49,074 nt of DNA from Rhodobacter sp. (GTDB lineage Bacteria > Pseudomonadota > Alphaproteobacteria > Rhodobacterales > Rhodobacteraceae): the NCBI GenBank assembly GCA_020250445.1, contig JADCEF010000060.1, positions 1-49,074 on the forward strand, read 5' to 3'. The notes under the pieces are model-generated. The model saw only the letters and a list, made by a program, of their open reading frames with translations. It was not told the origin of the DNA and made no database searches. The position numbers and the translations under genes were made by a program. This document shows, in pieces, positions 21,261 through 40,043 of the stretch (positions are counted from its first letter, which is position 1; each line of letters begins with the position of its first letter).

Positions 21261-22130
21261 ATGACTGAAACGAAACCCTATGTTCCGCCGCGGGTCTGGA
21301 CCTGGGACAAGACGAATGGCGGCGCTTTTGCCAAAACCAACCGGCCCGTCGCGGGAGCGACGCATGACAGGGCGCTTCCCCTGGGGCAGCATCCGTTCCA
21401 GCTGTATTCGCTGGCCACGCCGAACGGCGTCAAGGTGACGATCCTGCTGGAAGAGCTGCTGGCGGCAGGTCATGCCGGGGCCGAATATGACGCCTGGCTG
21501 ATCGAGATCGGCAAGGGCGATCAGTTCGGCAGCGGCTTTGTCGCCGTCAATCCCAACTCGAAGATTCCGGCGCTGCTCGACACCACCGTGACACCGCATC
21601 GCCGCGTGTTCGAATCCGGGGCGATCCTTTTGTATCTGGCCCGCAAGTTCGGAGCCTTTCTGGGCAAGGACCCGGCAGAGGAAACCGAATGCCTCAACTG
21701 GCTGTTCTGGCAGATGGGATCAGCGCCGTTCCTGGGCGGCGGCTTCGGGCATTTCTTTACCTATGCGCCGGAGAAGCTCGAATACCCGATCAACCGCTTC
21801 GCCATGGAAGTGAAACGCCAGCTTGATGTGCTGGACCGTCATCTGGCGGGCAACCGCTTCATGGCGGGCGACAGCTATACTATCGCCGATATCGCGATCT
21901 GGCCCTGGTATGGTGCGCTGGTGCGCGACGACAGCTATCCCAACGCCGCCGAATTCCTGGATGCCGCCAGCTACACCCATGTGCAGCGCTGGGCCGCCGA
22001 GATTGCCGCCCGCCCGGCGGTGCAGCGCGGCCGCCGCGTGAACCGCACCTGGGGGCCTGCGGAAGACCAGCTGCGTGAGAGGCATTCGGCGGGTGATTTC
22101 GACACAGCCAGCGGATCGACACCAGACTGA
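21261..22130 (+). CDS. yghU: Glutathione S-transferase YghU-type (disulfide-bond reductase)
   Basis: The 289-residue protein belongs to the YghU/Ure2p-like GST group, which reduces organic hydroperoxides and disulfides with two glutathiones. The N-terminal extension YVPPRVWTWDKTNGGAFAKTNRPVAGATHD is characteristic. It is followed by the thioredoxin-fold domain (LYSLATPNGVKVTILLEEL, NPNSKIPALLD, FESGAILLYLA) and the helical domain with YTIADIAIWPWYG. AGGAAAGG lies upstream of the ATG. It converges with the following leftward operon. Cytoplasmic. Confidence 0.93.
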   Translation: MTETKPYVPPRVWTWDKTNGGAFAKTNRPVAGATHDRALPLGQHPFQLYSLATPNGVKVTILLEELLAAGHAGAEYDAWLIEIGKGDQFGSGFVAVNPNSKIPALLDTTVTPHRRVFESGAILLYLARKFGAFLGKDPAEETECLNWLFWQMGSAPFLGGGFGHFFTYAPEKLEYPINRFAMEVKRQLDVLDRHLAGNRFMAGDSYTIADIAIWPWYGALVRDDSYPNAAEFLDAASYTHVQRWAAEIAARPAVQRGRRVNRTWGPAEDQLRERHSAGDFDTASGSTPD

Positions 22131-22264
22131 CCTGCCGGGATCGGGCGGCAGCAACCGGTTCCACCGCGCAGGGACCGGCGGCATGTGCCGCTTCCTGCCC
22201 GGCGGGTCGGGCCGCGTGACCGGCTGTTCCCCGGCCTTGCGGCGTCAACTGCCGGATGCGCCCA

Positions 22265-23167
22265 TTATTCCAGCCGTGCGGGGAACCCTTCCGCCCGCAG
22301 ATCGACCCCCAGCACATCCTCCAGCAGTTTGACCACCTGCGTCGATTGCGCGCTGCCGCCATAGGCCGCCTTCGCCTTGACAAAGGTCTGTTCTGTCAGT
22401 CCCGCCAGCTCCAGCGGCACGCCGAATTCCCGCCCGAACCCAAGGGCAAAACCCAGGTCCTTCAGCGCCAGATCATTGGTAAAGGCAATGTCATAACTGC
22501 CGTTCAGGATCAGCTGGCCTTCGGTTTCATGCACAAAGGATGTCCCCGAGGATGCCGTGATCGCCTCCCACGCCGTTTTCAGGTCCAGCCCCCCGCGCTT
22601 GGCCAGCATCAGCGCCTCGCCATCCGCGACCAGATGGATGAAGGCCAGCATATTGGTGATCACCTTGATCACCGCCGCCGACCCCAGCGGCCCCATGTGG
22701 AAAATGCGGTTGCCGATGGCCTGCAATGCGGGCAGGTGCAGGTCATACAGCGCCCGGTCGCCACCCGCCAGCACGGTGATTTCGCCCCGCGCCGCCAGAT
22801 GCACGCCGCCGGTCACCGGGGCCTCCATCAGCGGCACGCCATGCTCTGCCGCCAGCGCCCCCAGCCGCAGGATGTCGTCGCGCCCAAGGGTCGAGTTTTC
22901 CACCCAGGTGGCACCGGGCCGCATCCGGGGCAGCATTTCGCGCAGAACCGTCTCGGACACGGCAGGCGACGGCAGACAGGTGACGACATGATCCACCTCT
23001 GCCGCCAGATCCCCGGCACTGGCGGCCCAGGTGGCCCCCAGTGCCAGGTGCCTGTCGGCCAGCGCCCGGTCCCGGTCATGCACCGTCACCGGGAAACCCG
23101 CCTTCAGCAGACTGGCCGCCAGATGCCCGCCCAGGTTGCCCAGGCCCACATAGCCGTAGTGCATCAT
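22265..23167 (-). CDS. NAD(P)-dependent beta-hydroxyacid dehydrogenase (HIBADH family)
   Basis: A 300-residue member of the 3-hydroxyisobutyrate/tartronate-semialdehyde reductase family. The Rossmann motif GYVGLGNLGGHLAASLL is at the N-terminus, the substrate motif is APVTGGVHLAARGEITVLAGG and the catalytic Lys is in AAVIKVITNML. It is the last gene of the leftward catabolic operon and overlaps the aldehyde dehydrogenase by 4 bases. In this context it may reduce or oxidise a small carbon backbone left after demethylation and aldehyde oxidation. This is inference; the substrate is not evident. Confidence 0.92.
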   Translation of the reverse strand: MMHYGYVGLGNLGGHLAASLLKAGFPVTVHDRDRALADRHLALGATWAASAGDLAAEVDHVVTCLPSPAVSETVLREMLPRMRPGATWVENSTLGRDDILRLGALAAEHGVPLMEAPVTGGVHLAARGEITVLAGGDRALYDLHLPALQAIGNRIFHMGPLGSAAVIKVITNMLAFIHLVADGEALMLAKRGGLDLKTAWEAITASSGTSFVHETEGQLILNGSYDIAFTNDLALKDLGFALGFGREFGVPLELAGLTEQTFVKAKAAYGGSAQSTQVVKLLEDVLGVDLRAEGFPARLE

Positions 23168-24594
23168 GCGCCCCAGCCCACGATGCCCTTGACCTCGCAG
23201 AAGTCATGGATGCCCCAGTCCGCATATTCGCGCCCGTTGCCCGACTGCTTGTAGCCGCCGAAGGGGGCGAAGGTATCCCAGGCCGGGTAGTTGAGGTTGA
23301 CCGTGCCCGCGCGCAGCCGCCGCGCGACGGGTTGCGCATCTTCCACCGGCCCGGCGATATAGGCGGCAAGGCCGTAGGGCGTGTCGTTCGCCTGGGCCAC
23401 CGCATCATCAATGCTGTCATAGGACAGGATCGACAGAACCGGGCCAAAGATTTCTTCCCGCGCGATGGTCATGTCATTGGTCACATGGCCAAAGACCGTG
23501 GGCTTCACGAAATGGCCCCGGTTCAGCCCGGCGGGCCGTCCGACACCGCCGGTGACAAGCGTGGCCCCTTCGTCGATCCCCTTCTGGATCAGGCCCTGGA
23601 TCTTGTCGAAATGCACGCGGCTGACCACCGGCCCCAGCGTGGTTGCCGCATCGCGCGGATCGCCGGTCACGAATTCCTCCGCCTTGGCCTTGGCAATGGC
23701 CAGCGCCTCGTCATGGCGGGCGCGCGGGACGAACATGCGGGTCGGCGCATCGCAGCTTTGCCCCGAATTGCCAAAGCAGCCCTCGACCCCGCCTGCGACG
23801 GCGGCGGCAAGATCGGCCGTCGGCAGGATGATGTTGGGTGACTTGCCGCCCAGTTCCTGCGCCACGCGCTTGACCGTGGGGGCGGCTGCCTGCGCCACCA
23901 GAATGCCCGCGCGGGTCGATCCGGTGAAGGACACCATATCCACCTCGGGGTGCGAAGACATGCGCGCGCCCACCTCTGCCCCGGTTCCGTTCACCAGGTT
24001 GAACACACCCGCAGGCACGCCCGCCTCATGCATCACCTCGGCGAACAGGGCACCCGACAGCGGGGCGATTTCCGATGGTTTCAGCACCATGGTGCAGCCT
24101 GCCACAATCGCCGGGGCCACCTTGCAGGCGATCTGGTTCATCGGCCAGTTCCAGGGCGTGATCAGCGCACAAACCCCAATGCCTTCGCGGACGATCCGGG
24201 TCGATCCGCGCATCTCTTCCCAGTGGAACCTCTCGGCGGCGGTGATGGTGCTTTCGATATGCACCTGCCCGGCCCAGAACTGTGCCCCCCGCGCCCAGGA
24301 CAGGGGTGCCCCCATCTCGACGCTCATCGCGTCGACGAAATCATCCTCGCGGCTGTTGTAAACCTCAAGAATGCGCCTGAGCAGCGCGATCCGGTCGGCC
24401 ACCGGCGTGGTGGTCCAGGACAGGAACGCGGCCCGTGCCGCCGCAATTGCGCGGTCCGCATCTGCCGCAGACCCCAGCGCAACCTGCGCCACGATGTCCT
24501 CATTGGCCGGATTCTCAACCCCCATGGCCGTGCCGCCCAGCGGCGCAACCCATTCGCCATTGATATAGAAGTGGGAAAGATGATTCGATATCAT
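23164..24594 (-). CDS. Aldehyde dehydrogenase (NAD+)
   Basis: A 476-residue ALDH-superfamily protein starting MISNHLSHFYINGEW. Motifs seen are TPWNWPMNQIACKVAPAIVAG, VSFTGSTRAGI (cofactor), catalytic Glu in VAQELGGKSPNI, nucleophilic Cys in FGNSGQSCDAPTRMF, and EEIFGPVLSI and APFGGYKQSGNGRE near the end. The open frame extends upstream into the MttB gene, but the ATG at 24594 fits the family and is 7 bp after the MttB stop. It probably oxidises an aldehyde (for example a semialdehyde or trimethylamino-aldehyde) from the operon's substrate. Substrate not determined. Confidence 0.95.
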   Translation of the reverse strand: MISNHLSHFYINGEWVAPLGGTAMGVENPANEDIVAQVALGSAADADRAIAAARAAFLSWTTTPVADRIALLRRILEVYNSREDDFVDAMSVEMGAPLSWARGAQFWAGQVHIESTITAAERFHWEEMRGSTRIVREGIGVCALITPWNWPMNQIACKVAPAIVAGCTMVLKPSEIAPLSGALFAEVMHEAGVPAGVFNLVNGTGAEVGARMSSHPEVDMVSFTGSTRAGILVAQAAAPTVKRVAQELGGKSPNIILPTADLAAAVAGGVEGCFGNSGQSCDAPTRMFVPRARHDEALAIAKAKAEEFVTGDPRDAATTLGPVVSRVHFDKIQGLIQKGIDEGATLVTGGVGRPAGLNRGHFVKPTVFGHVTNDMTIAREEIFGPVLSILSYDSIDDAVAQANDTPYGLAAYIAGPVEDAQPVARRLRAGTVNLNYPAWDTFAPFGGYKQSGNGREYADWGIHDFCEVKGIVGWGA

Positions 24595-24601
24595 GATGTT
24601 C

Positions 24602-26155
24602 TCACTTGAAGTGGATGTTGTAGGCGGCGCGGATGGCCGCATCGATGTCCGGGTCAATCTGGCTGCCCGCTTTGGCCAGGATACTGTTCTTGCGCGCAAT
24701 CGCCCTGTCAAGCAGCAGCGGCTTGCCCGCCTCGGCCCATTCCTTGGGGCTCATGCGGTTGCCGACGACGGGATAGATGTATTCCGTCTGCATCAGCGCC
24801 AGCGTCTGGTCGCTGCCCAGGTAATGCCCAGGCCCGCCCAGGCAGACCTGTTTCATCGCCTCGATGCTTGTGCTGTCCTCGGTCACGTCGATGCCGCGCA
24901 CGCAGCGCAGCACCTGGCCCAGAATGTCATCACCCAGAACCAGGCTTTCCAGGCAGAAGCCCAGCAGCGAGGCATGCATCCCCACCGCCTCGTAGCACAT
25001 ATTCAGCCCCGACAGGCCGGCCAGTACATTGGTAATCCCCTGTTCCCAGCCCGCCTGCATATCGGGAAGCTTGCTGTCGGAAATGCCCGAGGCCGCCCCG
25101 CCGGGAAGGTTGTAGAAATGGTGCATCTGCGCACATCCGGCCGTCAGCAGCGCCTGTTCCGCCGATCCGCCCGACATGGCCCCCGTGCGCAGGTCGGACA
25201 CGAAGGGCCAGGTGCCGAAGATGGCCGGTGCCCCGGGCCGGATCGCGTTGACATAGACCACCCCCGCCAGGCATTCCGCCACCGCCTGCACGATGGCCAG
25301 GGCAATCGGGGCCGGGGCCGTGGCCCCGGCCTGTCCCGCGCTCAAAAGCAGCATCGGCATGCCCTTGCGGATGCATTTTTCCATCGTGATGCAGCTTTCT
25401 TCCGCAAACTTCATCGGCGGCACCACAAAGCAGTTGGAATTGCTGACAAAGGGGCGCGCGCGCCAGGCCAGTTCGCCCCCTGCCACCATGTGGAGAAGCT
25501 CAAAGCACCCCTCCACATGCGACGGATCGCTGAACGAGGTGCCGACATGCTTCGTGGTCCCTGCCAGACAGGCGTAGAGCGTGTTCACGTCCATGTCGTA
25601 GTTGTCGGTCACGTCGCGGCAGACCATCGCGCGCTGGAAAAAGTGGACATTGTCCAGATGATGGGTGATCCGCGCCGCGTCATACAGGTCCTGCGCGGTT
25701 GACTCGCGGTACTCGTTGCGCTCGAGGTCAACGATATGCACCGCAGCACCTGCGGTGCCGAAATGCACATTGGTCCCGGTCAGATGCAGGTCATGCTTCG
25801 GATCGCGCCCATGCAGGGTGATGTCGCGCGCCGCCACCGCCAGCATATCCTCGACCAGCGCGCGGGGAAAGCGGATGCGCCCGTCATCGCCCAGGATCGC
25901 CCCGGCCCCGGTCAGCAGCTCCACCCCCGAAGGCGGGGCCTGGCTCAGCCCGATCTGTTCCAAAGCATCGAGTGCCGAGGCATGAATCCTGGCCATGCCC
26001 GCCTCGGTCAGGGGGCGGTATTGCCCGCCCGGCAGGCCGGGCCGCACCGGGCGCAGGTTTTCCGCCAGCGGGGCTGACCGTTCGGCCACCCGCGATGCCC
26101 GCCCGCCGGACCGACGTGCCCGTGCCGGTTCGCACACCTCACCGATATCGCTCAT
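24602..26155 (-). CDS. MttB-superfamily (non-pyrrolysine) methyltransferase
   Basis: A 517-residue member of the trimethylamine methyltransferase (MttB) superfamily. The N-terminus has the typical Arg/Gly-rich RRSGGRASR and the TIM-barrel core includes THHLDNVHFFQRAMVCRDV and CYEAVGMHASLLGFCLESLVLGDDILG. No in-frame TAG is used, so it is of the pyrrolysine-free type, of which a glycine-betaine:corrinoid methyltransferase (MtgB) is a studied example. Such enzymes pass a methyl group to a corrinoid protein, but no corrinoid protein gene is in the window. It lies between the isocitrate-lyase-like gene and the aldehyde dehydrogenase, so the substrate is probably a methylated amine or betaine (inference). 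Confidence 0.92.
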   Translation of the reverse strand: MSDIGEVCEPARARRSGGRASRVAERSAPLAENLRPVRPGLPGGQYRPLTEAGMARIHASALDALEQIGLSQAPPSGVELLTGAGAILGDDGRIRFPRALVEDMLAVAARDITLHGRDPKHDLHLTGTNVHFGTAGAAVHIVDLERNEYRESTAQDLYDAARITHHLDNVHFFQRAMVCRDVTDNYDMDVNTLYACLAGTTKHVGTSFSDPSHVEGCFELLHMVAGGELAWRARPFVSNSNCFVVPPMKFAEESCITMEKCIRKGMPMLLLSAGQAGATAPAPIALAIVQAVAECLAGVVYVNAIRPGAPAIFGTWPFVSDLRTGAMSGGSAEQALLTAGCAQMHHFYNLPGGAASGISDSKLPDMQAGWEQGITNVLAGLSGLNMCYEAVGMHASLLGFCLESLVLGDDILGQVLRCVRGIDVTEDSTSIEAMKQVCLGGPGHYLGSDQTLALMQTEYIYPVVGNRMSPKEWAEAGKPLLLDRAIARKNSILAKAGSQIDPDIDAAIRAAYNIHFK

Positions 26156-26180
26156 TTGTCATCTCCCGCATCCTTCATGG

Positions 26181-26226
26181 TTCTTTTCGGCTCAAATACC
26201 CCGGGGGGCCGGGGGCTGGCCCCCGG
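26181..26226. repeat. TTCTGTTCACA-type intergenic element, copy D (diverged)
   Basis: The element reads TTCTTTTCGGCTCAAATACC followed by the perfect hairpin CCGGGGGC-TG-GCCCCCGG (26209-26226). It sits between the isocitrate-lyase-like and MttB genes on the transcribed minus strand. It could attenuate or stabilise the operon mRNA. Confidence 0.55.
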
Positions 26227-26233
26227 TCCGTCC

Positions 26234-27085
26234 TCAGGGGCCGGCGCCACGCCTCAACAGCGCGTCGATCTCGTCTTCGCTGGCCGCCTGCATCAGCGGA
26301 AGGAAGGATCCTGCCCCCAGCATCGCCGTCATCGCATCACGGATCGCCGCATGGGTGATGCGCGCGATCTGAGAGCCCGTCGAGATACGGCGCACGCCCA
26401 TCGCGGCCAGGTCGGCCACCGTCAGCGCGCGCAGCGGCCCTGCCGCCAGGGCATTCACCGGTTTGGTGACGGCAGAGAGCACCGCCCGCAACTCGGTTCG
26501 CCCGGGCGGGACCGGCAGGTACAGCACATCCGCGCCCGCCGCCTCGAAGGCCTGCAGGCGGCGGATGCCTTCGGCCAGGTCATAGGTGCCGTTCATCACG
26601 CCATCGGCCCGCGCGCAGAGCATGAAAGGCCGCTTCAGCGCCCGCGCCGCCGCCACGGCAGCGCGGATGCGCTCTACCGCCAGGTCTGTGGCATAGGCGG
26701 GCGTTGCCCCGGTCATCTGCGTATCCTCGATGGAACAGCCCGACAGGCCTGCCTCGCCCGCCAGACGCACGGTTTCCGCCACCCCGTCCGGGTCATCGGC
26801 AAAGCCATTCTCGAAATCGCCCGACACCGGCAGCGGCGTGGCCGCCACAATCGCCTCTGCATGGGCAAGCGCCTCATCCCGGCTGACCCCGCCGACATCC
26901 GGGCGTCCCAGGGCAAAGGCGTGGGCGGCGGAACTTGTGGCCAGCGCCTTGGCCCCCAAAGCCGCCATCATGCGGGCCGATCCTGCATCCCACGGGTTGG
27001 GCAGCACGAAGCAGCCCGCCGCATGCAGGTCGGCGAAAACGTCATGCCGTCTTGCAAGTGTCATGCCAGCCCCCAGTTTCCGCAT
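26234..27085 (-). CDS. Isocitrate lyase/PEP mutase family protein
   Basis: A 283-residue TIM-barrel protein with the family motifs LPNPWDAGSARMMAALGAKALATSS, SGDFENGFADDPDGVAETV, GLSGCSIEDT and the Mg2+-site acidic residues. The KKCGH catalytic motif of true isocitrate lyase is absent, so it is of the C-C or P-C lyase/hydrolase subgroup (oxaloacetate decarboxylase- or dimethylmalate lyase-like). The start at 27085 has AGAAGGA 7 bases upstream. The second Met at 27064 is an alternative. Its specific reaction in the amine operon is unknown. Confidence 0.9.
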   Translation of the reverse strand: MRKLGAGMTLARRHDVFADLHAAGCFVLPNPWDAGSARMMAALGAKALATSSAAHAFALGRPDVGGVSRDEALAHAEAIVAATPLPVSGDFENGFADDPDGVAETVRLAGEAGLSGCSIEDTQMTGATPAYATDLAVERIRAAVAAARALKRPFMLCARADGVMNGTYDLAEGIRRLQAFEAAGADVLYLPVPPGRTELRAVLSAVTKPVNALAAGPLRALTVADLAAMGVRRISTGSQIARITHAAIRDAMTAMLGAGSFLPLMQAASEDEIDALLRRGAGP

Positions 27086-27098
27086 CGCCCGTTCCTTC

Positions 27099-27155
27099 TT
27101 CTGTTCACAAATATCCCCGGGTGGGTCCGGGAGGGCAGGCAGCCCTTCCGGCGCC
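27099..27155. repeat. TTCTGTTCACA-type intergenic element, copy B
   Basis: TTCTGTTCACAAATATCC followed by an imperfect hairpin around GGCAGGC lies between the second flavoprotein gene and the isocitrate-lyase-like gene. Its AT-rich end, read on the minus strand, abuts the Shine-Dalgarno of the downstream gene. Confidence 0.65.
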
Positions 27156-27157
27156 GG

Positions 27158-29596
27158 TCACGCGCGCACCCGTTCCGATTTCGGATCATACATCGCCGTC
27201 AGCGAGGCGACCGCTTCGTGCCGTTTGCCCGCGATCTCGATCTCGTAGCGCGACCCCAGAAGGTCCACGTCGCTTTGCCCCGCGCTGGGCACATAGCCCA
27301 GCCCGATGGCCGCCCCCAGGAAATGCCCGTAATTGCCGCTGGTGACCGGCCCCACGATCTGGCCATCGCGAAGGATCGCCTCATTGTGGAACATCAGCGG
27401 GCCGGGGTCTTTCAGGCGGAACTGCATCATGCGCCGGTCCAGCCCGGACTGCTCCTTGCGCAGCACCGCCTCGCGCCCGATAAACCCGCCCTTGGCGGTC
27501 TTCACGGCAAAGCCAAGGCCCGCCTCCAGCACATGATCCTCGTCGGTGATGTCATGGCCGAAGTGGCGGTAGGCCTTTTCGATCCGGCAAGAGTCCAGCG
27601 TGTGCAGCCCGCACAGCACCATCCCCCTGTCCGCCGCCTCCAGCGCCTCAAACACATGGGCAGCCTGATCGGTGGAAACATACAGCTCCCACCCCAGTTC
27701 GCCCACGTACGTGACCCGGTGCGCGCGGGCCAGGCCCAGGCCGATCTCGATCTCGCGCGCGGTGCCGAAGGGGTGGGCGGCATTGCTGAAATCATTCGGG
27801 CTGACCGCCTGCAACAGCGCGCGGCTTTCAGGGCCCATCACACAAAGCACGGCTTCCGCAGCGGTGACATCGGTGATCACCGCAAAGGCATCGCCCAGAT
27901 GACGGCGCAGCCAGGCCAGATCGCGTTGCAGCGTGGCCCCCGGCACCACCAGCAGGAACGCCGTCTCGGAAAGGCGGGTCACCGTCAGGTCGCTTTCAAT
28001 GCCGCCCCGGTCATTCAGCATCTGAGTATAGACGATTCGCCCCACCGCCACGTCGACATCATTGGCGCAGATCTTCTGCAGGAAGGCGCAGGCATCGCGC
28101 CCTTCGACCCTGATCTTGCCGAAGGATGTCATGTCAAACAGGCCCACCCCGGTGCGGACCGCCATGTGTTCCGCTTTCTGGTTGTCGAACCAGTTCTGCC
28201 GGCCCCAGGAATAGCGGTACTGCCGTTCCTGCCCCGCCTTCGCGAACCAGTTGGCCCGTTCCCAGCCCGCCACCTCGCCAAAGACCGCGCCGCGTGCCTT
28301 GAGGTGTTCGTGCAGCGGCGTGCGCCGTACGCCACGCGCGGTTTCCACCTGGCGGTAGGGGAAGTGGTCGGCGTAAAGCAGGCCCAGGGTTTCGGTCACC
28401 CGTTCCTTCAGGTAACGGCGGTTCTTCTGGAACGGCTGGGCGCGGCGGATGTCCACTTCCCACAGGTCGAACGGGGCCTCGCCTTCGGTGATCCAATGCG
28501 CCAGCGCCATGCCCGCCCCGCCGGAGGACACGATTCCGATGGAATTGTATCCGGCGGCAATCCAGTAGCCGCCCAGTTCCGGCGCCTCGCCCAGATAGTA
28601 GCGGTCATCGGGGGTAAAGCTTTCGGGGCCGTTGAAAAAGGTGTGAATGCCTGCCGTCTGAAACAGCGGCATGCGGTGCATCGCCGCCTCCAGGATCGGC
28701 TGGAAATGGTCGAAATCCTCGGGCAGGGTGTCAAAGCAGAAGTCTTCGCGGATCCCGTCCATTCCCCAGGGTTTCGCCTTGGGTTCAAACGCGCCCAGCA
28801 TCATCTTGCCCGCGTCCTGCTTGTAATAGGCGCATTCGTCGGGCACGCGCAGCACCGGCAGATGGCCCAGCCCTTCGATCGGCTCGGTCACCAGGTAGAA
28901 ATGCTCGCAGGCGTGCAGCGGCAGCGTGACACCGTTCTGGTTGGCCAGATCGCGGCCCCACATGCCGCCGCAGTTGATGACGACATCGGCGGCAATGTGG
29001 CCCGGCACATCATCCTGCACATAGTCGACGCCGGTCACCCGCCGCCCGGCTTCGGTGACCCCCGTGACCTTGACGCCTTCGAAAATCTGGGCGCCGCGCA
29101 TCCGCGCGCCTTTGGCCAGCGCCATGGCGATGTTTGCGGGGTCACATTGCCCGTCCAGCGGCAGGGCCACGGCGCCCACCACATCAGAGACATTCAGATG
29201 CGGATAGCGCGCCTTGACCTCGGCGGGCGAAATCTCGTGGACTTCCACATCGAAAATCCGGGCCACCGTTGCCTGGCGCAGCAGTTCCTCGTGCCGCGCC
29301 GCCGTCAGCGCCACCGAGATGCTGCCCACCTGGCGCATCCCCGTGGCAACGCCCGTTTCCGCCTCGAGCCTGACGTAAAGATCGGCGGAATACTTGGCCA
29401 GCCGCGTCATGTTGGCCGAGCCGCGCAACTGGCCGATCAGGCCCGCCGCATGCCAGGTGGTGCCGCAGGTCAGCTGCCTGCGTTCCAGCAGCACGATGTC
29501 GCTCCAGCCCGCCTTTGCCAGATGATAGGCCACCGAGCAGCCGGAAATGCCGCCCCCGATGATGACGGCCCGCGCCTGTGCCGGAACGCCGCTCAC
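27158..29596 (-). CDS. Dimethylglycine/sarcosine dehydrogenase-like flavoprotein 2 (DAO-GcvT fusion)
   Basis: An 812-residue two-part enzyme. The N-terminal FAD oxidoreductase (DAO) domain has AVIIGGGISGCSVAYHLAKAG, the presumptive covalent-flavin His in CGTTWHAAGLIGQLRGSANM, and GGYWIAAGYNSIGIVSSGGAG. The C-terminal aminomethyltransferase/GcvT-like folate domain has FDMTSFGKIRVEGRDACAFLQ, GELGWELYV and LDSCRIEKAYRHFG. Such enzymes oxidatively demethylate N-methyl amines and pass the methylene to tetrahydrofolate. A GTG start at 29596 is chosen because GGGAG lies about 8 bases upstream and the FAD motif follows directly. The longer frame to 29698 crosses a palindrome and lacks homology. It is a paralogue of the gene at 31725-34166. 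Confidence 0.92.
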   Translation of the reverse strand: MSGVPAQARAVIIGGGISGCSVAYHLAKAGWSDIVLLERRQLTCGTTWHAAGLIGQLRGSANMTRLAKYSADLYVRLEAETGVATGMRQVGSISVALTAARHEELLRQATVARIFDVEVHEISPAEVKARYPHLNVSDVVGAVALPLDGQCDPANIAMALAKGARMRGAQIFEGVKVTGVTEAGRRVTGVDYVQDDVPGHIAADVVINCGGMWGRDLANQNGVTLPLHACEHFYLVTEPIEGLGHLPVLRVPDECAYYKQDAGKMMLGAFEPKAKPWGMDGIREDFCFDTLPEDFDHFQPILEAAMHRMPLFQTAGIHTFFNGPESFTPDDRYYLGEAPELGGYWIAAGYNSIGIVSSGGAGMALAHWITEGEAPFDLWEVDIRRAQPFQKNRRYLKERVTETLGLLYADHFPYRQVETARGVRRTPLHEHLKARGAVFGEVAGWERANWFAKAGQERQYRYSWGRQNWFDNQKAEHMAVRTGVGLFDMTSFGKIRVEGRDACAFLQKICANDVDVAVGRIVYTQMLNDRGGIESDLTVTRLSETAFLLVVPGATLQRDLAWLRRHLGDAFAVITDVTAAEAVLCVMGPESRALLQAVSPNDFSNAAHPFGTAREIEIGLGLARAHRVTYVGELGWELYVSTDQAAHVFEALEAADRGMVLCGLHTLDSCRIEKAYRHFGHDITDEDHVLEAGLGFAVKTAKGGFIGREAVLRKEQSGLDRRMMQFRLKDPGPLMFHNEAILRDGQIVGPVTSGNYGHFLGAAIGLGYVPSAGQSDVDLLGSRYEIEIAGKRHEAVASLTAMYDPKSERVRA

Positions 29597-29625
29597 CGCT
29601 GTTCTCCCAAAAGACCCAAACCGAT

Positions 29626-29658
29626 TTTTCTGCGAAAAATCAGAATTTTCGCAGAAAA
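29626..29658. promoter_or_regulatory. 13-bp perfect palindrome upstream of the second flavoprotein gene
   Basis: TTTTCTGCGAAAA (29626-29638) and TTTTCGCAGAAAA (29646-29658) form perfect arms around a 7-nt centre, strikingly AT-rich for this DNA. It lies 30 bp before the GTG start at 29596, within a 109-bp gap that breaks the tight gene packing. It could be a regulator operator, an RNA attenuator, or the start of an internal transcription unit. Confidence 0.6.
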
Positions 29659-29705
29659 TTCGTGCGCCGAAGCCGCGACGGCGGTCTTCATCCCCCATTG
29701 CCCGG

Positions 29706-30593
29706 TCATGTCAGTGCATATCCCCTGTCTGTCAGCCGCCGCGCGATGGCGGCAATATGGGCGGGTGTGGTTTCGCAGCAGCCGCCGATGATCGTGGCCC
29801 CCTGACGCACCCAGTGTTCGGCGAAATCCGCGTAAAGCTCCGGTACCATCTCTGGCCGGGCGGACAGGGCATCGACAGTGGGCCTGTCTTTCAGAAAATC
29901 GTCGGTGATCTGCTGAAAGCCGTTGGCATAGCAGCCATAGGGCAGGTTTGCCGCCGAAAGCGCCTCCAGCGCCGCCGTCATCGCCTCGGGGGCCGAACAA
30001 TTGGCCAGCACCGCCGCCGCCCCGTCGCGCGCAATCGCGGCAAGCCCGGCCACCGGCTCGCCCGAGCGCAGGCGCGTGCCGTCGCGGTCATCGACCGTGA
30101 CCGAAAGCCAGACCGGGCGCCCCATGGGCAGGGCCGCTTCGAGGAGCGCGCGCGCCTGTGCCAGGGTGGCAATGGTTTCGCCCAGAATGACATCGACCTG
30201 CGGGGCAAGGATTGCGGCAATCTCGGCGTAAAGGCGGGTGGCCGTCTCATGCGCGGGGCCCACATCGGCGCGGTAGGACGCGCCCAAAGGCCCGATCGAT
30301 CCGGCCAGGCGGCCTTTTCCGGCCCCATCGCGGGCGGCCCGCGCCTCGGCCAGGGCCTGGGCGTGCAGGGCGGCAAACTGTGCGGCGGCGGGGGTTCCGG
30401 CCAGCCGGTCGCGGTGCAGCGCATAGGTGTTGGTCGTGGCCATGCTGGCCCCGGCGGCGAAGTAATCGGCATGGATCGCCTGCACCAGGCCCGGATGGTC
30501 GATCATCACCTGCGTCGCCCAAAGCGGCGTTGGCGCATCGCCCGAGCGTGCGATCAGCTCTTGCCCCATGCCGCCGTCCAGCAGCGTGATCAT
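29706..30593 (-). CDS. Homocysteine S-methyltransferase family protein (betaine-homocysteine methyltransferase-like)
   Basis: A 295-residue Pfam S-methyl_trans protein. The zinc/homocysteine-binding motifs are present: VLANCSAPEAM (first Cys) and IIGGCCETTPAHI (Cys pair), plus LLDGGMGQELIARSG at the N-terminus and ATTNTYALHRDRL. It would transfer a methyl group to homocysteine to make methionine, and in this operon the donor may be a betaine (inference). It overlaps the upstream MDR gene by 4 bases and is followed by a 109-bp gap holding a palindrome. Confidence 0.92.
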   Translation of the reverse strand: MITLLDGGMGQELIARSGDAPTPLWATQVMIDHPGLVQAIHADYFAAGASMATTNTYALHRDRLAGTPAAAQFAALHAQALAEARAARDGAGKGRLAGSIGPLGASYRADVGPAHETATRLYAEIAAILAPQVDVILGETIATLAQARALLEAALPMGRPVWLSVTVDDRDGTRLRSGEPVAGLAAIARDGAAAVLANCSAPEAMTAALEALSAANLPYGCYANGFQQITDDFLKDRPTVDALSARPEMVPELYADFAEHWVRQGATIIGGCCETTPAHIAAIARRLTDRGYALT

Positions 30594-31621
30594 GTCTCTG
30601 CCCCCTGTGGCAGCAGCACCAGTTTGCCCGGATAACGCCCCGCCGCCAGGTCGGCCTGGGCCTGCGCGATGTCGCGCAGCGCATAGGTCTGCGACACGAC
30701 CGGGCGGATGCGCGCGGCGTTGATCAGGCTGACAAGCCCCGCAAACACCTCGCGCGGCTGGTGGGTGGCCCCGAACACCGTCAGGTCATTCAGGTAGACT
30801 GTCCGCAGATCGCCCTGCACGACCGGCCCTGCCACCGCCCCCGATGTGGCATAGCGCCCGCCCGGGCGCAGCGCCTCCAGCCGCTGCTGCCAGCCTGCCC
30901 CCCCCACGACATCGATTACCACGTCAAAGCTGCGGGGTGCCAATGTGGCGTCCCGGTCCAGCACGGCCGCCCCTGCGGCGCGCAGCACGCCCGCCTTTTC
31001 CGGTCTGGCCTGCCCCGTCACCTCTGCGTCCCGCAGGAGCGCAAGCTGCACCGCCGCCAGCCCGACACCGCCCGAGGCCCCGGTGACCAGCACCCGTTCC
31101 CCGGCCCCGACCCCGGCCCGCGCCAGAAGGTTGGCCGCCGTGCCATAGGCGCAGGGCATGGCCCCGATTTCGACATCCGACAGGGCCGAAGGGGTCACAT
31201 CGTGCAGATGACGCGCGGGCACCAGGCAATACTGGGCAAAGGCCCCGTCATATTCCGAACCGATCGCGACGAAGTGCAGCGGGTTTTGCGCCGTCGGCTC
31301 GGGCTGGTTGGTCGGGCAGATCACGCGGGCACCGGGCGCAAGGCCATTCACCCCCGCCCCAAGCGCCACGACCCGCCCGCACAGGTCAGACCCCTGGATG
31401 CGCGGAAAGCCAAGCGCCCCCGCCCAGCCCGCCGCCCCATCGCCGCCGTACCAGCCGGTCCGCGTGTTGATGTCAGTGGCATTCACGCCCGCCGCCAGCA
31501 CGCGCACCAGCACCTCGCCCGGACCCGGATGCGGAACCGGCAGGTCATCGCGCCACACCAGCGCCTCCGGTCCGCCATGGCGGACCAGCTGCACGCCGGA
31601 CATGGTGGCAGGCAGCGTCAT
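30590..31621 (-). CDS. Medium-chain (quinone oxidoreductase-like) zinc-independent dehydrogenase
   Basis: A 343-residue MDR-family protein. N-terminal GroES-like domain (PHPGPGEVLVRVLAAGVNATDINTRTG, IQGSDLCGRVVALG) and a Rossmann domain with VLVTGASGGVGLAAVQLAL. It lacks the structural-zinc Cys cluster and the GHE catalytic-zinc motif of alcohol dehydrogenases, pointing to an NADPH:quinone reductase-like subgroup. It begins 103 bp after the first flavoprotein gene and overlaps the methyltransferase gene (ATGA). It may act as an electron-transfer or side-product enzyme of the pathway. Substrate unknown. Confidence 0.9.
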   Translation of the reverse strand: MTLPATMSGVQLVRHGGPEALVWRDDLPVPHPGPGEVLVRVLAAGVNATDINTRTGWYGGDGAAGWAGALGFPRIQGSDLCGRVVALGAGVNGLAPGARVICPTNQPEPTAQNPLHFVAIGSEYDGAFAQYCLVPARHLHDVTPSALSDVEIGAMPCAYGTAANLLARAGVGAGERVLVTGASGGVGLAAVQLALLRDAEVTGQARPEKAGVLRAAGAAVLDRDATLAPRSFDVVIDVVGGAGWQQRLEALRPGGRYATSGAVAGPVVQGDLRTVYLNDLTVFGATHQPREVFAGLVSLINAARIRPVVSQTYALRDIAQAQADLAAGRYPGKLVLLPQGAET

Positions 31622-31724
31622 GCCGCGACCCGTCCGGCGGCGGTGCCCGGCATCGGCGGCGCGGCGGAGGCATCACAGCCCCGCACCCCTGCGGGATCGC
31701 CGCGCAGATCGGATGCAGGCCGGG

Positions 31725-34166
31725 TCACGCGCGGATCCGTTGGTTGCCGGGGTCCCAGACCGGGCCGTCGCCCTGCACCCGCGCGGGATAGCGCCTGCCG
31801 AAAACCTCGATTTCCACGGCGGTGCCCGCCTGCGCCAGATCGGCGCGCAGCATGCCAAGGGCAATGCAGCCGCCCGTCCGGTGGCCCCAAGAGGCGCTTG
31901 TCGTCTCGCCCACAACCGCGCCGTTGTGCCAGAGGGTGGACATGTAGGGCGGGTCACAGTCGCCCACCTCGGCCGTCAGGGTGACAAAGCGCTTTGCCAC
32001 CCCGCGCTGCTTTTCCGCCTCCAGCGCCGCCTTGCCGCGGAATTCGGGTTTCGTCCAGTCGACGAACCGCTCCAGCCCGCCCTGCAGCACGGTGTAATCG
32101 GTTGACAGATCGCCCTTCCAGGCGCGGTAGCCCTTTTCGATGCGCAGCGAATTCAGCGCGAACATGCCAAAGGGGCGCAGGCCGTGGCCCGCGCCCGCCC
32201 GCATCACAGCTTCCCAGACGATGCCGGTGTCTTCGGTGCGGGAATGGATTTCCCAGCCCAGTTCGCCGGCAAAGGACACGCGCATCAGCAGAACCGGCAC
32301 ACCGCCGAGCGACGCCTCTTGCCAGGTCAGCCAGGGTTTTGTCAGGTCGGCCCCGGTCACCTCTGCCAGAATGGCGCGGCTTTTCGGCCCGGTCAGGATC
32401 TGGCACGACCAAAGATCGGTTTCCTCTTGGAAGGTCAGGCCCGAGTCCAGGTGCCTGCGCAGCCAGTCGCGGTCATGGGACTGGGCGGTGGCGGCGGTGA
32501 TCAGCAGCACCTCGTCCTGCGTGATGCGGGTGATCGACATCTCGGTAACGATGCGCCCCCTGTCATCGGCAAAATACCCCAGGCCCAGCCGCCCGACGGC
32601 GGGCACCCTGCCGGTGATCTGGCGGGCCAGCCAGGCCACCGTTCCGGCACCCGAAATGCGAAAGCGCGAAAAGCCCGGCAGATCAAGGATTCCGGCGGCA
32701 TCGCGCACGGCAAGGCATTCTTCCCGCACAGCGCCGAACCAGGGGCCTTCGCGCCGCCAGGTCTGGGTGCCCTCTTCGGATGTATCGTCGCCCGGGCGCG
32801 CATACCACAGGGCGCGTTCCCAGCCGTTGTAGGCCCCATAGACCGCATGCAGCGCCTTGGTCCGCGCGTGCACGACCGAAAGCTTTCTGTCGCGCCCCGC
32901 CGGCCAGGCATGGTGCGGGAAATGGATGGCATATTCGTGGCCATAAACCTCCATCCCCTTTTTCACGCAGTAATCCTGATCCTCGAACCCGGTAAAGCGG
33001 CGCGGGTCGCAGGACCACATATCCCATTCCGTGGCCCCTTCGGTGACCCATTCGGCCAGAACCTTGCCCGCCCCGCCCGCCTGGCAGATGCCAAAGGTAA
33101 AGACGCAGGCCTCAAACGCGTTGGGAACACCCGGCATCGGCCCGATCAGCGGATTGCCGTCGGGCGTGTAGGGGATCGGCCCGTTGATCACCTTGGCGAG
33201 GGATGCCTTCTCCAGCAGCGGCACCCGGGCCATGGCATCGGCGATGTACCATTCCAGCCGCTCCAGATCATCCGGGAAAAGCTGAAAGCTGAAGTCCTGG
33301 GGAAAGGGATCGTCCGGGGTCACCCAATGGGCGCGGCAGTTGCGCTCATAGGGACCAAGGTTGAATCCGGACTTTTCCTGCCGCAGATAGTAACTGCTGT
33401 CCACATCGCGCAAGAGCGGCAGCTTGTGGCCCACCGCGGCGGTCCATTGCGCCAGTTCGGGAATGGTGTCGAACAGCATGTACTGATGGCTCATCACCAT
33501 CATCGGCACGTCGCGGCCGAACCATTTTCCGACCTCGCGCGCATAATAGCCTGCGGCATTGACAACGATCTCGCAGCGGATTGCGCCCTTGGGGGTCTGC
33601 ACCACCCATTCGTCACCCTCGCGGCGCACGCCGGTCGCGGGGCAGAACCGCTCGATCCGCGCCCCCATCGCCCGCGCGCCCTTGGCCAGGGCCTGGGTCA
33701 GTTGCGCCGGATCGATATCCCCGTCACAGGGATCATAAAGCGCCCCGCTCAGATCATGGGTTTCCACAAAGGGGTAGCGTGAGCGCACCTCGTCCGGCCC
33801 CAGGATGTCCAGGTCCATCCCCTGATAGCGCCCCATGCCCACAACGCGGCGGAACTCGCGCAGCCGTTCGGCGCTGTGCCCCAGCCGGACAGACCCGGTG
33901 ACATGGTAGTTCATCGGATAGTCGACGGCCTCGCCCAGACCCCGGTAGAGCTGCGCCGAATAGCGCTGCATGTTCATGATCGACCAACTGGAGGAAAAGG
34001 TTGGCACATTGCCCGCCGCATGCCAGGTGGACCCGGCGGTCAGTTCGTTCTTTTCCAGCAGGACGGCATCGGTCCATCCGGCCCTGGCCAGATGATACAG
34101 CGCCGATGCGCCCACCGCCCCGCCGCCGATGATCACGACCCGCGCGCTTGTCGGAAATTCCGCCAC
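31725..34166 (-). CDS. Dimethylglycine/sarcosine dehydrogenase-like flavoprotein 1 (DAO-GcvT fusion)
   Basis: An 813-residue protein and first gene of the leftward operon. The FAD domain has VVIIGGGAVGASALYHLARAG and the presumed flavin-linking His in TAGSTWHAAGNVPTFSSSWS. The C-terminal GcvT-like folate domain has FAGELGWEIHSRTEDTG, FALNSLRIEKGYRAWKGDL and VGETTSASWGHRTGG. It is expected to oxidise an N-methyl amino acid or betaine product. The start is GTG at 34166 with AGGGGG upstream; an ATG at 34173 is out of frame. Candidate promoter at 34193-34221 and LysR palindrome at 34242-34260. It is only distantly similar to the other flavoprotein of the operon, so the substrates may differ. Confidence 0.93.
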   Translation of the reverse strand: MAEFPTSARVVIIGGGAVGASALYHLARAGWTDAVLLEKNELTAGSTWHAAGNVPTFSSSWSIMNMQRYSAQLYRGLGEAVDYPMNYHVTGSVRLGHSAERLREFRRVVGMGRYQGMDLDILGPDEVRSRYPFVETHDLSGALYDPCDGDIDPAQLTQALAKGARAMGARIERFCPATGVRREGDEWVVQTPKGAIRCEIVVNAAGYYAREVGKWFGRDVPMMVMSHQYMLFDTIPELAQWTAAVGHKLPLLRDVDSSYYLRQEKSGFNLGPYERNCRAHWVTPDDPFPQDFSFQLFPDDLERLEWYIADAMARVPLLEKASLAKVINGPIPYTPDGNPLIGPMPGVPNAFEACVFTFGICQAGGAGKVLAEWVTEGATEWDMWSCDPRRFTGFEDQDYCVKKGMEVYGHEYAIHFPHHAWPAGRDRKLSVVHARTKALHAVYGAYNGWERALWYARPGDDTSEEGTQTWRREGPWFGAVREECLAVRDAAGILDLPGFSRFRISGAGTVAWLARQITGRVPAVGRLGLGYFADDRGRIVTEMSITRITQDEVLLITAATAQSHDRDWLRRHLDSGLTFQEETDLWSCQILTGPKSRAILAEVTGADLTKPWLTWQEASLGGVPVLLMRVSFAGELGWEIHSRTEDTGIVWEAVMRAGAGHGLRPFGMFALNSLRIEKGYRAWKGDLSTDYTVLQGGLERFVDWTKPEFRGKAALEAEKQRGVAKRFVTLTAEVGDCDPPYMSTLWHNGAVVGETTSASWGHRTGGCIALGMLRADLAQAGTAVEIEVFGRRYPARVQGDGPVWDPGNQRIRA
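34152..34162. promoter_or_regulatory. Second copy of the CGGAAATTCCG core
   Basis: CGGAAATTCCG sits in codons 2-5 of the first flavoprotein gene and is identical to the core of the 19-bp palindrome at 34242-34260. The offset is 94 bp, about nine helical turns. It may be a secondary regulator site; chance is possible. Confidence 0.45.
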
Positions 34167-34192
34167 GCCCCATCCCCCTGTTCCGATGCTGC

Positions 34193-34221
34193 AGTATCGA
34201 CTGCGCGCGAAGGGCTTTCAA
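34193..34221 (-). promoter_or_regulatory. Candidate sigma70 promoter of the methylated-amine operon
   Basis: On the minus strand TTGAAA (34221-34216) is separated by 17 bases from GATACT (34198-34193). The inferred start is near 34186, 20 bases before the GTG start codon. The -35 matches 5 of 6 consensus bases and the -10 matches 4 of 6. Confidence 0.55.
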
Positions 34222-34241
34222 TTCGCCGTCTCCGGTCTTAT

Positions 34242-34260
34242 TGATCGGAAATTCCGATCA
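34242..34260. promoter_or_regulatory. 19-bp LysR-type operator palindrome
   Basis: TGATCGGAAATTCCGATCA is a perfect palindrome around a central base. It lies between the divergent LysR gene and the amine operon. Its centre (34251) is about 65 bp upstream of the operon start inferred from the candidate promoter, the usual position of a LysR-family recognition site. It ends nine bases before the lysR ATG, touching its Shine-Dalgarno (AGGA), which would permit autorepression. Confidence 0.7.
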
Positions 34261-34269
34261 GGAAACCCG

Positions 34270-35121
34270 ATGCAGCCCGAACTTCTTGAAACCTTCCTGG
34301 ATTTGGTCGACACGCGCAGTTTCAACCGCACGGCCGACAGGCTGGGGCTGACCCAATCCACCGTGTCTGCCCGCGTGCAGGCGCTGGAGGCCGCCCTGGG
34401 CGCGCGTCTGTTCACCCGGTCGCGCGCGGGCACCGACCTGACGACAGAGGGGCTGAAGTTCGAGCCGCACGCCCGCGGCCTGCGCCATGCCTGGGGCGAG
34501 GCGCAGCGCAGTGTCGGCCCCTCGGGGACGGCGGCCTTTACCCTGCGGGTCGGCATCCAGCATGATCTGGCGGCGGGGCGCATCGGCGACTGGATTTCCG
34601 AGTTCCGCCGCGCGCTGCCGGAAACCGCCTTTTACGTCGAACCCGATTATTCGGCACAGATGTGCGCCGACCTTGCCACGGGCACGCTGGATTTCGCGGT
34701 GCTTTACAGCCCGCGCCCCCTGCCCGACCTGCACTTTACCTCGATCGGCGGGGTCACTTACCGGCTGATCTCGTCCGATACCGACCGGCGCGCGGGTCTG
34801 GCACCCGACCGCTACATCCGGGCCAATTATGCGCCCGCCTTTGATGCGACCCACCGCCTGCTTCTGCCCGATCTGACCGAAGCCGCCCCGCTGGCATCGG
34901 GGCAGAACGCGACCGTCGCGGGCATGCTGACGGCCCTGGGCGGGGCCGCCTTTGTGCAGGAGGATACGGTGGCGGCACTGGCGGGCGCAGGGTTTCGCCG
35001 CGTTGCCGACGTGCCGCCGATCACGCAGCCGGTCTTTGCCGCCACGCATCTGCGGCACCGCACCTCGGCCCTGCACCGCCGCCTTCTGAAGATCGTGGAG
35101 CGGCAGTTGAACCGGCGCTGA
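34270..35121 (+). CDS. LysR family transcriptional regulator
   Basis: A 283-residue LTTR. The N-terminal winged helix (MQPELLETFLDLVDTRSFNRTADRLGLTQSTVSARVQALE, residues 1-40, extending to about 60) is followed by a substrate-binding domain starting about residue 90 (TLRVGIQHDLAAGRIGDW). The ATG at 34270 has AGGA 6 bases upstream. The longer frame from 34129 is antisense to the flavoprotein gene. It is divergently placed from the amine operon with a perfect palindrome between, so it probably regulates that operon and itself. Inducer unknown. Confidence 0.94.
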   Translation: MQPELLETFLDLVDTRSFNRTADRLGLTQSTVSARVQALEAALGARLFTRSRAGTDLTTEGLKFEPHARGLRHAWGEAQRSVGPSGTAAFTLRVGIQHDLAAGRIGDWISEFRRALPETAFYVEPDYSAQMCADLATGTLDFAVLYSPRPLPDLHFTSIGGVTYRLISSDTDRRAGLAPDRYIRANYAPAFDATHRLLLPDLTEAAPLASGQNATVAGMLTALGGAAFVQEDTVAALAGAGFRRVADVPPITQPVFAATHLRHRTSALHRRLLKIVERQLNRR

Positions 35122-35134
35122 CCCCTGATCCATT

Positions 35135-35206
35135 TTCTGTTCACAAATATCCCCGGGGGTGAATTGGCCGCAGGCCAAGAGGGGGCAGACAGCCCCCTGC
35201 CCTTGC
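35135..35206. terminator. TTCTGTTCACA-type element, copy C (bidirectional terminator)
   Basis: TTCTGTTCACAAATATCC is followed by TTGGCC-GCA-GGCCAA (35164-35178) and GGGGGC-AGACA-GCCCCC (35181-35197). It lies exactly between the convergent lysR and hutC genes, so a bidirectional termination role is plausible. It is the most complete of the four copies in the window. Confidence 0.6.
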
Positions 35207-35212
35207 CCGGCC

Positions 35213-35899
35213 CTACAGGGTCATGCGCAGCCGGTATCCGGGCATATAGGCCAGCCGCACAAAGGTGATCGCTGTATCCGCTGTCCAGGTCGTCCGTTCG
35301 ACAATGAACAGCGGCGTGCCGGGGTCAATGCCAAAGGCAGCGGCATCATCCGCACCGGCACCGGCGGCAGAAAAGGCAATGTCGCCAGCGGTATAGGGCA
35401 TATTGGCCACCAGCCATTCATTGGCGCTTTGTGCCGCGAAATCGGGCTGTTGCCCGCCCAGGGCTGCCGGGTTCAGCCAGCGGTCCTCGCAGATAAAGGG
35501 CCGGCCATCGGCGGAATGCAGACAGGTCAGGTGCCGCAGCACCGCTCCGGCCGGCAGGCGCAGGCGCAAGGCAACGGGCAGTGGCGGCGGTTCAGGCGCA
35601 TCGGCCAGCAGACGATAGGCATAAGTCTGTCCGCGCCGCTCCACCTCTTGCCGGATCACCGGAATTTCCAGCGTTGCCCGGCGCACGGGGCGCATTGCCA
35701 CCCGCGTGCCCGCCTTGCGGCGGCGTTCCAGCACGCCGGTTGCCGCCAGGTCCCGCAGGGCGCGGCCGACGGTGGCGCGGGCACAGCCGAATTCCCGGGA
35801 CAGGGCTTCTTCCGTGGGAATCGCCGCACCCGGCCCCCATTCGCGCGTCTGGATGCGGCGCAGCACATCGGCGCGGATCGCCTCCCAGCCGTGGCTCAC
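35213..35899 (-). CDS. hutC: Histidine utilization repressor HutC (GntR family)
   Basis: A 228-residue GntR/HutC protein. The N-terminal winged helix (ADVLRRIQTREWGPGAAIPTEEALSREFGCARATVGRALRDL, up to about residue 70) is followed by the UTRA ligand-binding domain ending YMPGYRLRMTL. HutC represses hut genes and is released by urocanate. The GTG start at 35899 overlaps the hutF stop by 4 bases (GTGA), with GAGGG about 7 bases upstream, so hutF and hutC form one leftward operon. The product probably binds the hut intergenic region at 37252-37324. Confidence 0.93.
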   Translation of the reverse strand: MSHGWEAIRADVLRRIQTREWGPGAAIPTEEALSREFGCARATVGRALRDLAATGVLERRRKAGTRVAMRPVRRATLEIPVIRQEVERRGQTYAYRLLADAPEPPPLPVALRLRLPAGAVLRHLTCLHSADGRPFICEDRWLNPAALGGQQPDFAAQSANEWLVANMPYTAGDIAFSAAGAGADDAAAFGIDPGTPLFIVERTTWTADTAITFVRLAYMPGYRLRMTL

Positions 35900-37251: not shown

Positions 37252-37263
37252 CGGACACCTTGC

Positions 37264-37313
37264 TTGACAGGCGGGATTATGTGCAGACATATTTGTGTAA
37301 AGCACAGACATAA
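37264..37313 (+). promoter_or_regulatory. hut divergent promoter/operator region
   Basis: TTGACA (37264-37269), 18 bases, then CATATT (37288-37293) forms a candidate rightward promoter for hutI. Two direct copies of CAGACATA (37284-37291 and 37305-37312) lie 21 bp apart, two helical turns. The first is part of the palindrome TATGT-GCAG-ACATA (37278-37291). These are good candidates for HutC binding over the promoter. Confidence 0.5.
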
Positions 37314-37324
37314 GGCAAGCCGCA

Positions 37325-38507: not shown

Positions 38508-38518
<11 letters not shown>
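37325..38518 (+). CDS. hutI: Imidazolonepropionase
   Basis: HutI opens the imidazolone ring of 4-imidazolone-5-propionate to give N-formimidoyl-glutamate. The 397-residue amidohydrolase has the metal motif [58 protein letters not shown] and [10 protein letters not shown]. The ATG at 37325 has AAGGCA upstream. It is the first gene of the rightward hutI-H-U unit, and its 3' end overlaps the hutH start. Confidence 0.96.

Positions 38519-40043
<1,525 letters not shown>

Follow-up and report, generated by a model that had tools for sequence, protein, structure and literature searches.

How can an MttB-type methyltransferase operate from a locus that encodes no corrinoid partner? The question is raised by an eight-gene leftward operon in a 49,074-nucleotide stretch of Rhodobacter sp. 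DNA (contig JADCEF010000060.1 of assembly GCA_020250445.1; the whole stretch is hereafter called the window). An earlier note on this DNA had pointed out that neither a corrinoid protein nor a corrinoid:folate methyltransferase lies nearby, and had proposed either that these partners are encoded elsewhere or that this MttB works in an unusual, partnerless way. Our analysis favors the former. Comparison with homologs indicates that the operon probably serves as a LysR-controlled cassette dedicated to the N-demethylation of a betaine-type quaternary-ammonium compound other than glycine betaine, which would use MtgC and MtgD proteins shared across the cell. The gene set, the regulator gene, a conserved operator motif, the partner genes, and their co-occurrence with this MttB were observed directly.

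Architecture of the operon

A check of the open reading frames (ORFs) placed eight minus-strand ORFs in one tight array at 22265-34166, with intergenic gaps of -4, 7, 78, 72, 7, -4, and 103 nt. All eight proteins match the families that the earlier note had named, above the Pfam cut-offs. The base composition is 64–72% GC throughout the window, in which no tRNA genes were found. The features of the operon and its control region are listed below, where "optional" refers to occurrence among relatives.

22265..23167, minus strand: 3-hydroxyisobutyrate/beta-hydroxyacid dehydrogenase-like protein (HIBADH); PF03446 and PF14833 (NAD_binding_2/11)
23164..24594, minus strand: betaine-aldehyde-dehydrogenase-like aldehyde dehydrogenase (ALDH); PF00171 (Aldedh), 498 bits
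24602..26155, minus strand: non-pyrrolysine MttB-superfamily protein, probable quaternary-amine methyltransferase; PF06253, 368 bits
26234..27085, minus strand: phosphoenolpyruvate-mutase/isocitrate-lyase superfamily protein (ICL), optional; PF13714, 238 bits
27158..29698, minus strand: DAO-GcvT protein 1 (DT1), probable folate-linked demethylase; PF01266, PF16350, PF01571, PF08669
29706..30593, minus strand: homocysteine S-methyltransferase family protein (HMT), optional; PF02574, 209 bits
30590..31621, minus strand: MDR-type oxidoreductase, optional; PF08240/PF00107 (ADH_N/ADH_zinc_N)
31725..34166, minus strand: DAO-GcvT protein 2 (DT2), probable folate-linked demethylase, first gene; PF01266, PF16350, PF01571, PF08669
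34193..34221, minus strand: sigma-70-like site TTGAAA-N17-GATACT before the operon; consensus match only
34242..34260, no strand assigned: probable LysR operator, TGATCG-N7-CGATCA inverted repeat; motif conservation at LysR flanks
34270..35121, plus strand: divergent LysR-family regulator; PF00126/PF03466, longest frame starting at 34129

The MttB protein is intact and matches PF06253 over its full length (368 bits against a cut-off of 25; profile positions 1–490 of 500). Its Ile358 aligns with the pyrrolysine (X) of 7xcl, in agreement with its earlier description as pyrrolysine-free. Its TIGR02369 score of 328.6 bits is below the equivalog cut-off of 525, which keeps it out of the canonical trimethylamine methyltransferases. 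Few substrates are known for the MttB superfamily, of which MthB is called the sixth member with a known one in PMC12155760, even though 280 of the 295 sampled genomes of this bacterial family carry at least one homolog. Among the open-access papers listed in our searches, no title or abstract opening names a substrate for the clade of the window MttB.

DT1 and DT2 both contain the DAO, FAO_M, GCV_T, and GCV_T_C domains in this order. DT1 scores 445 bits against dimethylglycine dehydrogenase 4p9s and DT2 scores 576 bits against 4pab, with matches spanning nearly the full length, and the DAO-FAO_M-GcvT architecture is common to the dimethylglycine dehydrogenases/oxidases 4p9s, 5l46, and 1pj5. 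The two proteins are only 34% alike. To our knowledge, the MttB-superfamily systems of Eubacterium limosum, compared below, include no DAO-GcvT enzymes. HMT is 26% identical to the MtgE-like protein of the same genome and is thus a distant paralog; its translation shows cysteines in NCSA and GGCC, which we take to be the zinc ligands. The top NCBIfam match of ALDH is betaine-aldehyde dehydrogenase (BADH), at 416 bits under a cut-off of 669. A longer ALDH frame with a TTG start at 24711 overlaps mttB, and the codon-usage gene caller makes the start at 24594 the likelier one. HIBADH matched ten NCBIfam models, scoring under the cut-off for every one.

Corrinoid partners are encoded elsewhere in the genome

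The genome (3.48 Mb in 125 contigs, 97% complete) encodes three MttB proteins, located in the window and on contigs C76 and C120. A genome-wide profile search returned no PF02607 corrinoid or PF00809 pterin match on the window's contig, confirming that the partners are not nearby, and both of the suspected partners were found on other contigs together with their accessory proteins. PF02607 is matched twice, on C63 and C104. The C63 protein is of the MtgC type (PF02607 plus PF02310), with DUF1638 (PF07796) adjoining and an MtgE-like homocysteine methyltransferase further along on the other side. Contig C2 holds an MtgD-like PF00809 protein and the corrinoid reductive activase RACo (PF14574, C2:20969-21784). 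The genes required by an aerobic MtgBCD-type system, namely those of the MtgC, MtgD, RamA/RACo, and DUF1638 types, are all present in this genome. A 292-aa gene beside mtgD (L012:9343-10221) had no Pfam match at 1e-6.

A counterpart is the MtgBCD(E) glycine betaine methyltransferase/split methionine synthase of Ruegeria pomeroyi, also an aerobic alphaproteobacterium. According to PMC12478193, both glycine betaine demethylation and methionine synthesis require mtgC and mtgD in that organism, where the genes do not lie together; an MttB without adjoining partners is therefore already known in the family. Both systems have a pyrrolysine-free MttB to which MtgC, MtgD, RamA, and DUF1638 are unlinked. 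In contrast, the window MttB stands further from MtgB and is accompanied by a LysR gene, an operator, and DAO-GcvT genes of its own, and its substrate is set apart from glycine betaine by a sequence argument only. In Eubacterium limosum, MtpB, MtcB, and MtyB work with MtqC/MtqA, and MthB with MthC/MthA (PMC8604678 and PMC12155760). Although this organism is an anaerobic acetogen, its systems are comparable in that several substrate-specific MttBs can feed one corrinoid protein. Our interpretation is in line with the idea of a single corrinoid hub shared by several substrate-specific MttB modules in aerobic bacteria.

The partners accompany the clade in the genomes tested. MtgC, at an identity of at least 77%, and MtgD were sought in 56 related genomes, which we chose from the 295 sampled; a few of the matches hold one stop inside the aligned stretch. 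MtgC occurs in 50 of the 56, and the same six genomes lack both proteins. Among the 37 genomes listed with an MttB at least 77% identical to that of the window, 27 belong to the tested set, and all 27 encode both MtgC and MtgD. MtgC is present in 47 of the 48 genomes with any MttB match, compared with three of the eight without (Fisher p = 8e-5, uncorrected for kinship). As MtgC also makes methionine, this co-occurrence demonstrates availability rather than dedicated coupling to MttB.

Two relatives carry the partners close to the operon. These are genome G175 (L077/L201) and Pseudorhodobacter antarcticus (L140/L200), where mtgE, mtgC, and DUF1638 are found no more than about 7 kb from the LysR gene of the operon. 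The LysR end adjoins an alcohol-dehydrogenase-type gene, 80% identical to its counterpart in the mtgC-mtgE locus of our genome, and past this gene follow MtgE (82–83%), MtgC (89–93%), and DUF1638 (68–75%). Because their gene order is identical, the two loci may share one origin. The sequence beyond LysR reaches at least 2 kb in 82 of 120 aligned loci and at least 5 kb in 27, so further loci of this kind may have been missed.

A recurrent core and its variable companion genes

The cluster is widespread within its bacterial family. Gene content was compared across 40 stretches and the best 80 of 549 named loci, with seven MttB sequences common to both sets. Presence was counted in the 58 named loci that extend at least 4 kb downstream and at least 9 kb upstream, thresholds that we set. 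LysR was found in 57 of them, HIBADH in 54, and DT1 and DT2 in 51 each, followed by ALDH (36), MDR (14), ICL (7), and HMT (4). Of the loci compared, many of which are incomplete, just three have all eight genes: the window, its relative L063 from the same genus, and L122. The operon proposed in the earlier note is thus present in the window as a set of genes but, as found here for the first time, is not a fixed unit, and several of its genes are optional. The recurrent core consists of the divergent LysR gene, the palindromic operator, and mttB, usually accompanied by HIBADH and two DAO-GcvT demethylases. Seven named loci (L134, L135, L148, L154, L156, L158, and L162) hold LysR and mttB without orthologous DAO-GcvT genes, and HIBADH also stands beside mttB where these are absent. 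In the Hyphomicrobiales, the loci of Cohaesibacter (L164), Sinorhizobium (L192), and Shinella (L195) contain LysR, DT2, DT1, and mttB, with no HIBADH match in any of the three; the Shinella locus has a relative of ICL (71%).

Close to the start of LysR, 74 of 84 loci, some of which represent the same genome twice, carry the pattern TRATCG-N7-CGATYA, compared with 12 of 420 random 450-nt windows, and it is also present at the Sinorhizobium and Shinella copies. It occurs twice in our genome, at the operon and within an ORF. Some other genomes contain it up to 23 times, and it is accordingly less specific there. A search with this pattern across our genome found no transporter. The sigma-70-like site at 34221-34193 is the only one on the minus strand in 22000-35300 and stands directly before the first gene. 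This region contains two such sites against 1.7 expected from shuffles, so the site is not evidence on its own. One weak terminator-like hairpin (27132-27115) falls in the gap between ICL and DT1; such hairpins are rarer in the region than in shuffled sequence (4 versus 8.0).

Proposed demethylation pathway

The catalytic and regulatory steps proposed here are all modeled on homologs. In the first step, MttB would move one methyl group of the trimethylammonium substrate to the Co(I) of the MtgC shared across the cell and encoded elsewhere, and MtgD would pass it from MtgC to tetrahydrofolate, while RACo and DUF1638 would maintain the cobalt in its reduced state. The two dimethylglycine-dehydrogenase-like DAO-GcvT enzymes would then oxidize the dimethyl and monomethyl products, yielding methylene-tetrahydrofolate. 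HMT, where present, probably sends methyl groups to methionine, and ALDH, HIBADH, and the optional enzymes would process the freed backbone.

Several observations weigh against this scheme. The mtg genes are co-located in many other bacteria (PMC12478193), and an unlinked MttB is hence not universal. Given the role of MtgC and MtgD in methionine synthesis, their co-occurrence with MttB is partly expected and not specific to the clade, and the adjacency of mtgE and mtgC, seen in two loci only, could be due to chance or shared ancestry. The Yoonia/Loktanella-type mttB loci without orthologous DAO-GcvT genes imply that demethylation at this locus need not proceed in three steps. In addition, glycine betaine itself could still be the substrate, as R. 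pomeroyi raises two MttB homologs on it (PMC12478193).

Candidate substrate and rival explanations

Compared with 9yce, a glycine betaine methyltransferase of solved structure, the C76 MttB scores 409 bits and the C120 MttB 311 bits, whereas the window MttB reaches 190 bits. The C76 protein also scores 721 bits against 4yyc, an entry whose listed function is only a putative trimethylamine methyltransferase. Our genome encodes another three DAO-GcvT proteins, on C118, C24, and C10 (L188-L190), one of them beside a choline-kinase-like gene. With two MttBs nearer to 9yce and DAO-GcvT proteins elsewhere, glycine betaine work can be done away from this operon. The window MttB clade therefore probably serves a compound other than glycine betaine, likely another betaine. 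The quaternary-amine substrates known for the superfamily mostly bear a carboxylate (in phosphocholine, a phosphate; PMC12155760), which favors a betaine. The earlier suggestion of a substrate beyond glycine betaine agrees with these comparisons, and carnitine-, butyrobetaine-, and stachydrine-like compounds stay candidates. Genomes may contain up to seven MttB homologs, for which other methylated substrates have been suggested (PMC12478193). Because the clade has a regulator of its own, a conserved operator motif, and corrinoid partners that can be identified, substrate discovery becomes directly testable, and the response of LysR alone should reveal the compound. Two of the three additional DAO-GcvT genes lie near ABC-type permease genes (PF02653), which suggests other methylated substrates for them.

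It is unlikely, by comparison, that the operon encodes a second glycine betaine pathway, in which MttB, DT2, and DT1 would produce dimethylglycine, sarcosine, and glycine and the BADH-like ALDH would make betaine from choline. The resemblance of DT1 and DT2 to dimethylglycine dehydrogenase and the two MttB homologs raised by R. pomeroyi would suit such a pathway, but the genome has two MttBs nearer to the glycine betaine enzyme and three further DAO-GcvT proteins at other sites. BADH is the top match of ALDH, yet that match falls far under its cut-off. A choline-dehydrogenase-like GMC gene follows HIBADH in L070 (below the choline-dehydrogenase cut-offs) and in L071 (by sequence cluster), whereas no choline dehydrogenase or betaine transporter was detected among the window genes scanned, a set that leaves out the two window ends.

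A different substrate is suggested by the genes directly beyond LysR, where a hut cluster, hutC-hutF followed by the oppositely oriented hutI-hutH-hutU, was found; neither this cluster nor LysR appears in the earlier note.

35213-35899, minus strand: hutC
35896-37359, minus strand: hutF
37325-38518, plus strand: hutI
about 38508-40043, plus strand: hutH
about 40144-41829, plus strand: hutU

A hutG gene was not detected among those scanned in the window. The gap between hutF and hutI holds a distinct palindrome, TTATGTGCAGACATA, at about 37277-37291 (read by eye), which is perhaps a HutC operator. As the palindromes at the operon and in this gap differ, the two neighbors appear to be separately controlled. 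HutC-type palindromes, sought by pattern, gave two matches in the 18 sequences searched and none in the window.

In its boldest form, the substrate proposal holds that the MttB clade represents a new substrate class, the aerobic removal of all three N-methyls from a non-glycine amino-acid betaine, with hercynine as the boldest candidate; we regard this as a long shot. If true, it would deliver free histidine to the hut genes and tie together B12, folate, methionine, and histidine metabolism. A link between hercynine and hut was our strongest early idea and was dropped: hut adjacency (21/62) is matched by that of purF on the opposite side (22/61), although the stretch examined differs somewhat between the two sides.

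The corresponding hercynine (histidine betaine) pathway, in which MttB and the two DAO-GcvT enzymes would strip three N-methyls to leave histidine for the hut cluster, is very improbable. Its appeal lies in the position of the cluster directly beyond LysR, in the hut genes of 21 of 62 evaluable named relatives, and in the equal numbers of demethylases and methyls (three each); however, the housekeeping purine-synthesis gene purF is equally conserved on the other side. Nine loci lack the hut block between LysR and gene c24, no hut match was obtained near the Sinorhizobium, Shinella, and Cohaesibacter copies, and visual inspection of the operon promoter showed no HutC-like site. Urocanase is encoded in 23 of the 27 genomes with this MttB and in 20 of the 42 others (p = 0.002; G056, G244, and G173, with 77% MttBs, are placed among the others), but it is missing from four of the 27, and the lineages are related. 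A tree requires 15 changes of the hut label against a shuffled mean of 25.8 (none of 500 shuffles as low), with at least five changes forced by starred branches, which is consistent with an old arrangement repeatedly lost. The hut block is turned round in L079 and L146, and its hutU end is seen in L123 and L128. We judge the hut cluster to be a syntenic neighbor outside the system.

Finally, a corrinoid-free MttB that hands methyls straight to folate or homocysteine via the neighboring GcvT or HMT, as the adjacency of these domains and the lack of a corrinoid gene on the contig might suggest, is extremely improbable, given that every one of the 27 tested genomes with this MttB also encodes corrinoid partners and that just 4 of 58 relatives have an HMT. 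Such partnerless chemistry is not needed, since the partners are present in the genome and also beside the operon in two relatives (L077/L201 and L140/L200), a finding that the earlier note had itself named as speaking against it.

Sister operons and neighboring genes

Beyond the clade, the proposed demethylation cassette has relatives with other accompanying genes. Each of six plasmid-borne sister MttBs (41–49%) is located near at least one full-length DAO-GcvT gene. Two of them have betaine/proline ABC transporters nearby (L202 and L204), and others are near genes for aminotransferases, thiamine pyrophosphate (TPP) enzymes, or carnitinyl-CoA dehydratase. We read this as a modular design, with a constant demethylation core and backbone enzymes that vary with the substrate. 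The megaplasmid operon of R. pomeroyi DSS-3 (SPO_RS21400 region; L193, 9929-19249) resembles that of the window in its divergent LysR, its MttB (45%), and two successive DAO-GcvT genes, whereas a class III aminotransferase and a TPP enzyme replace ALDH and HIBADH. The top NCBIfam match of this TPP enzyme is sulfoacetaldehyde acetyltransferase (401 bits, under the cut-off). L205, like L193, contains LysR, MttB, a class III aminotransferase, and two DAO-GcvT genes, and a taurine-betaine-type substrate is conceivable for this sister operon.

Several minor observations concern individual loci. A GST-family gene (window 21261-22130) adjoins HIBADH, and a 72% relative of it lies near DUF1638 and mtgC in P. 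antarcticus (L200, 1753-2583). In Sinorhizobium meliloti Ak57 pSymB (L192, 13406-15840), DT1 is split into three pieces in different frames, with no gene listed, and is either frameshifted or mis-sequenced. The mttB-DT2 pair of L044 (4474-10248) has a divergent neighbor that matches 5-guanidino-2-oxopentanoate decarboxylase (669 bits against a cut-off of 500). Outside the clade, L046, L047, and L051 combine mttB, DT1, and DT2 in varying ways with a class I/II aminotransferase, a pyridoxal-phosphate-dependent decarboxylase, or LysE-type exporters.

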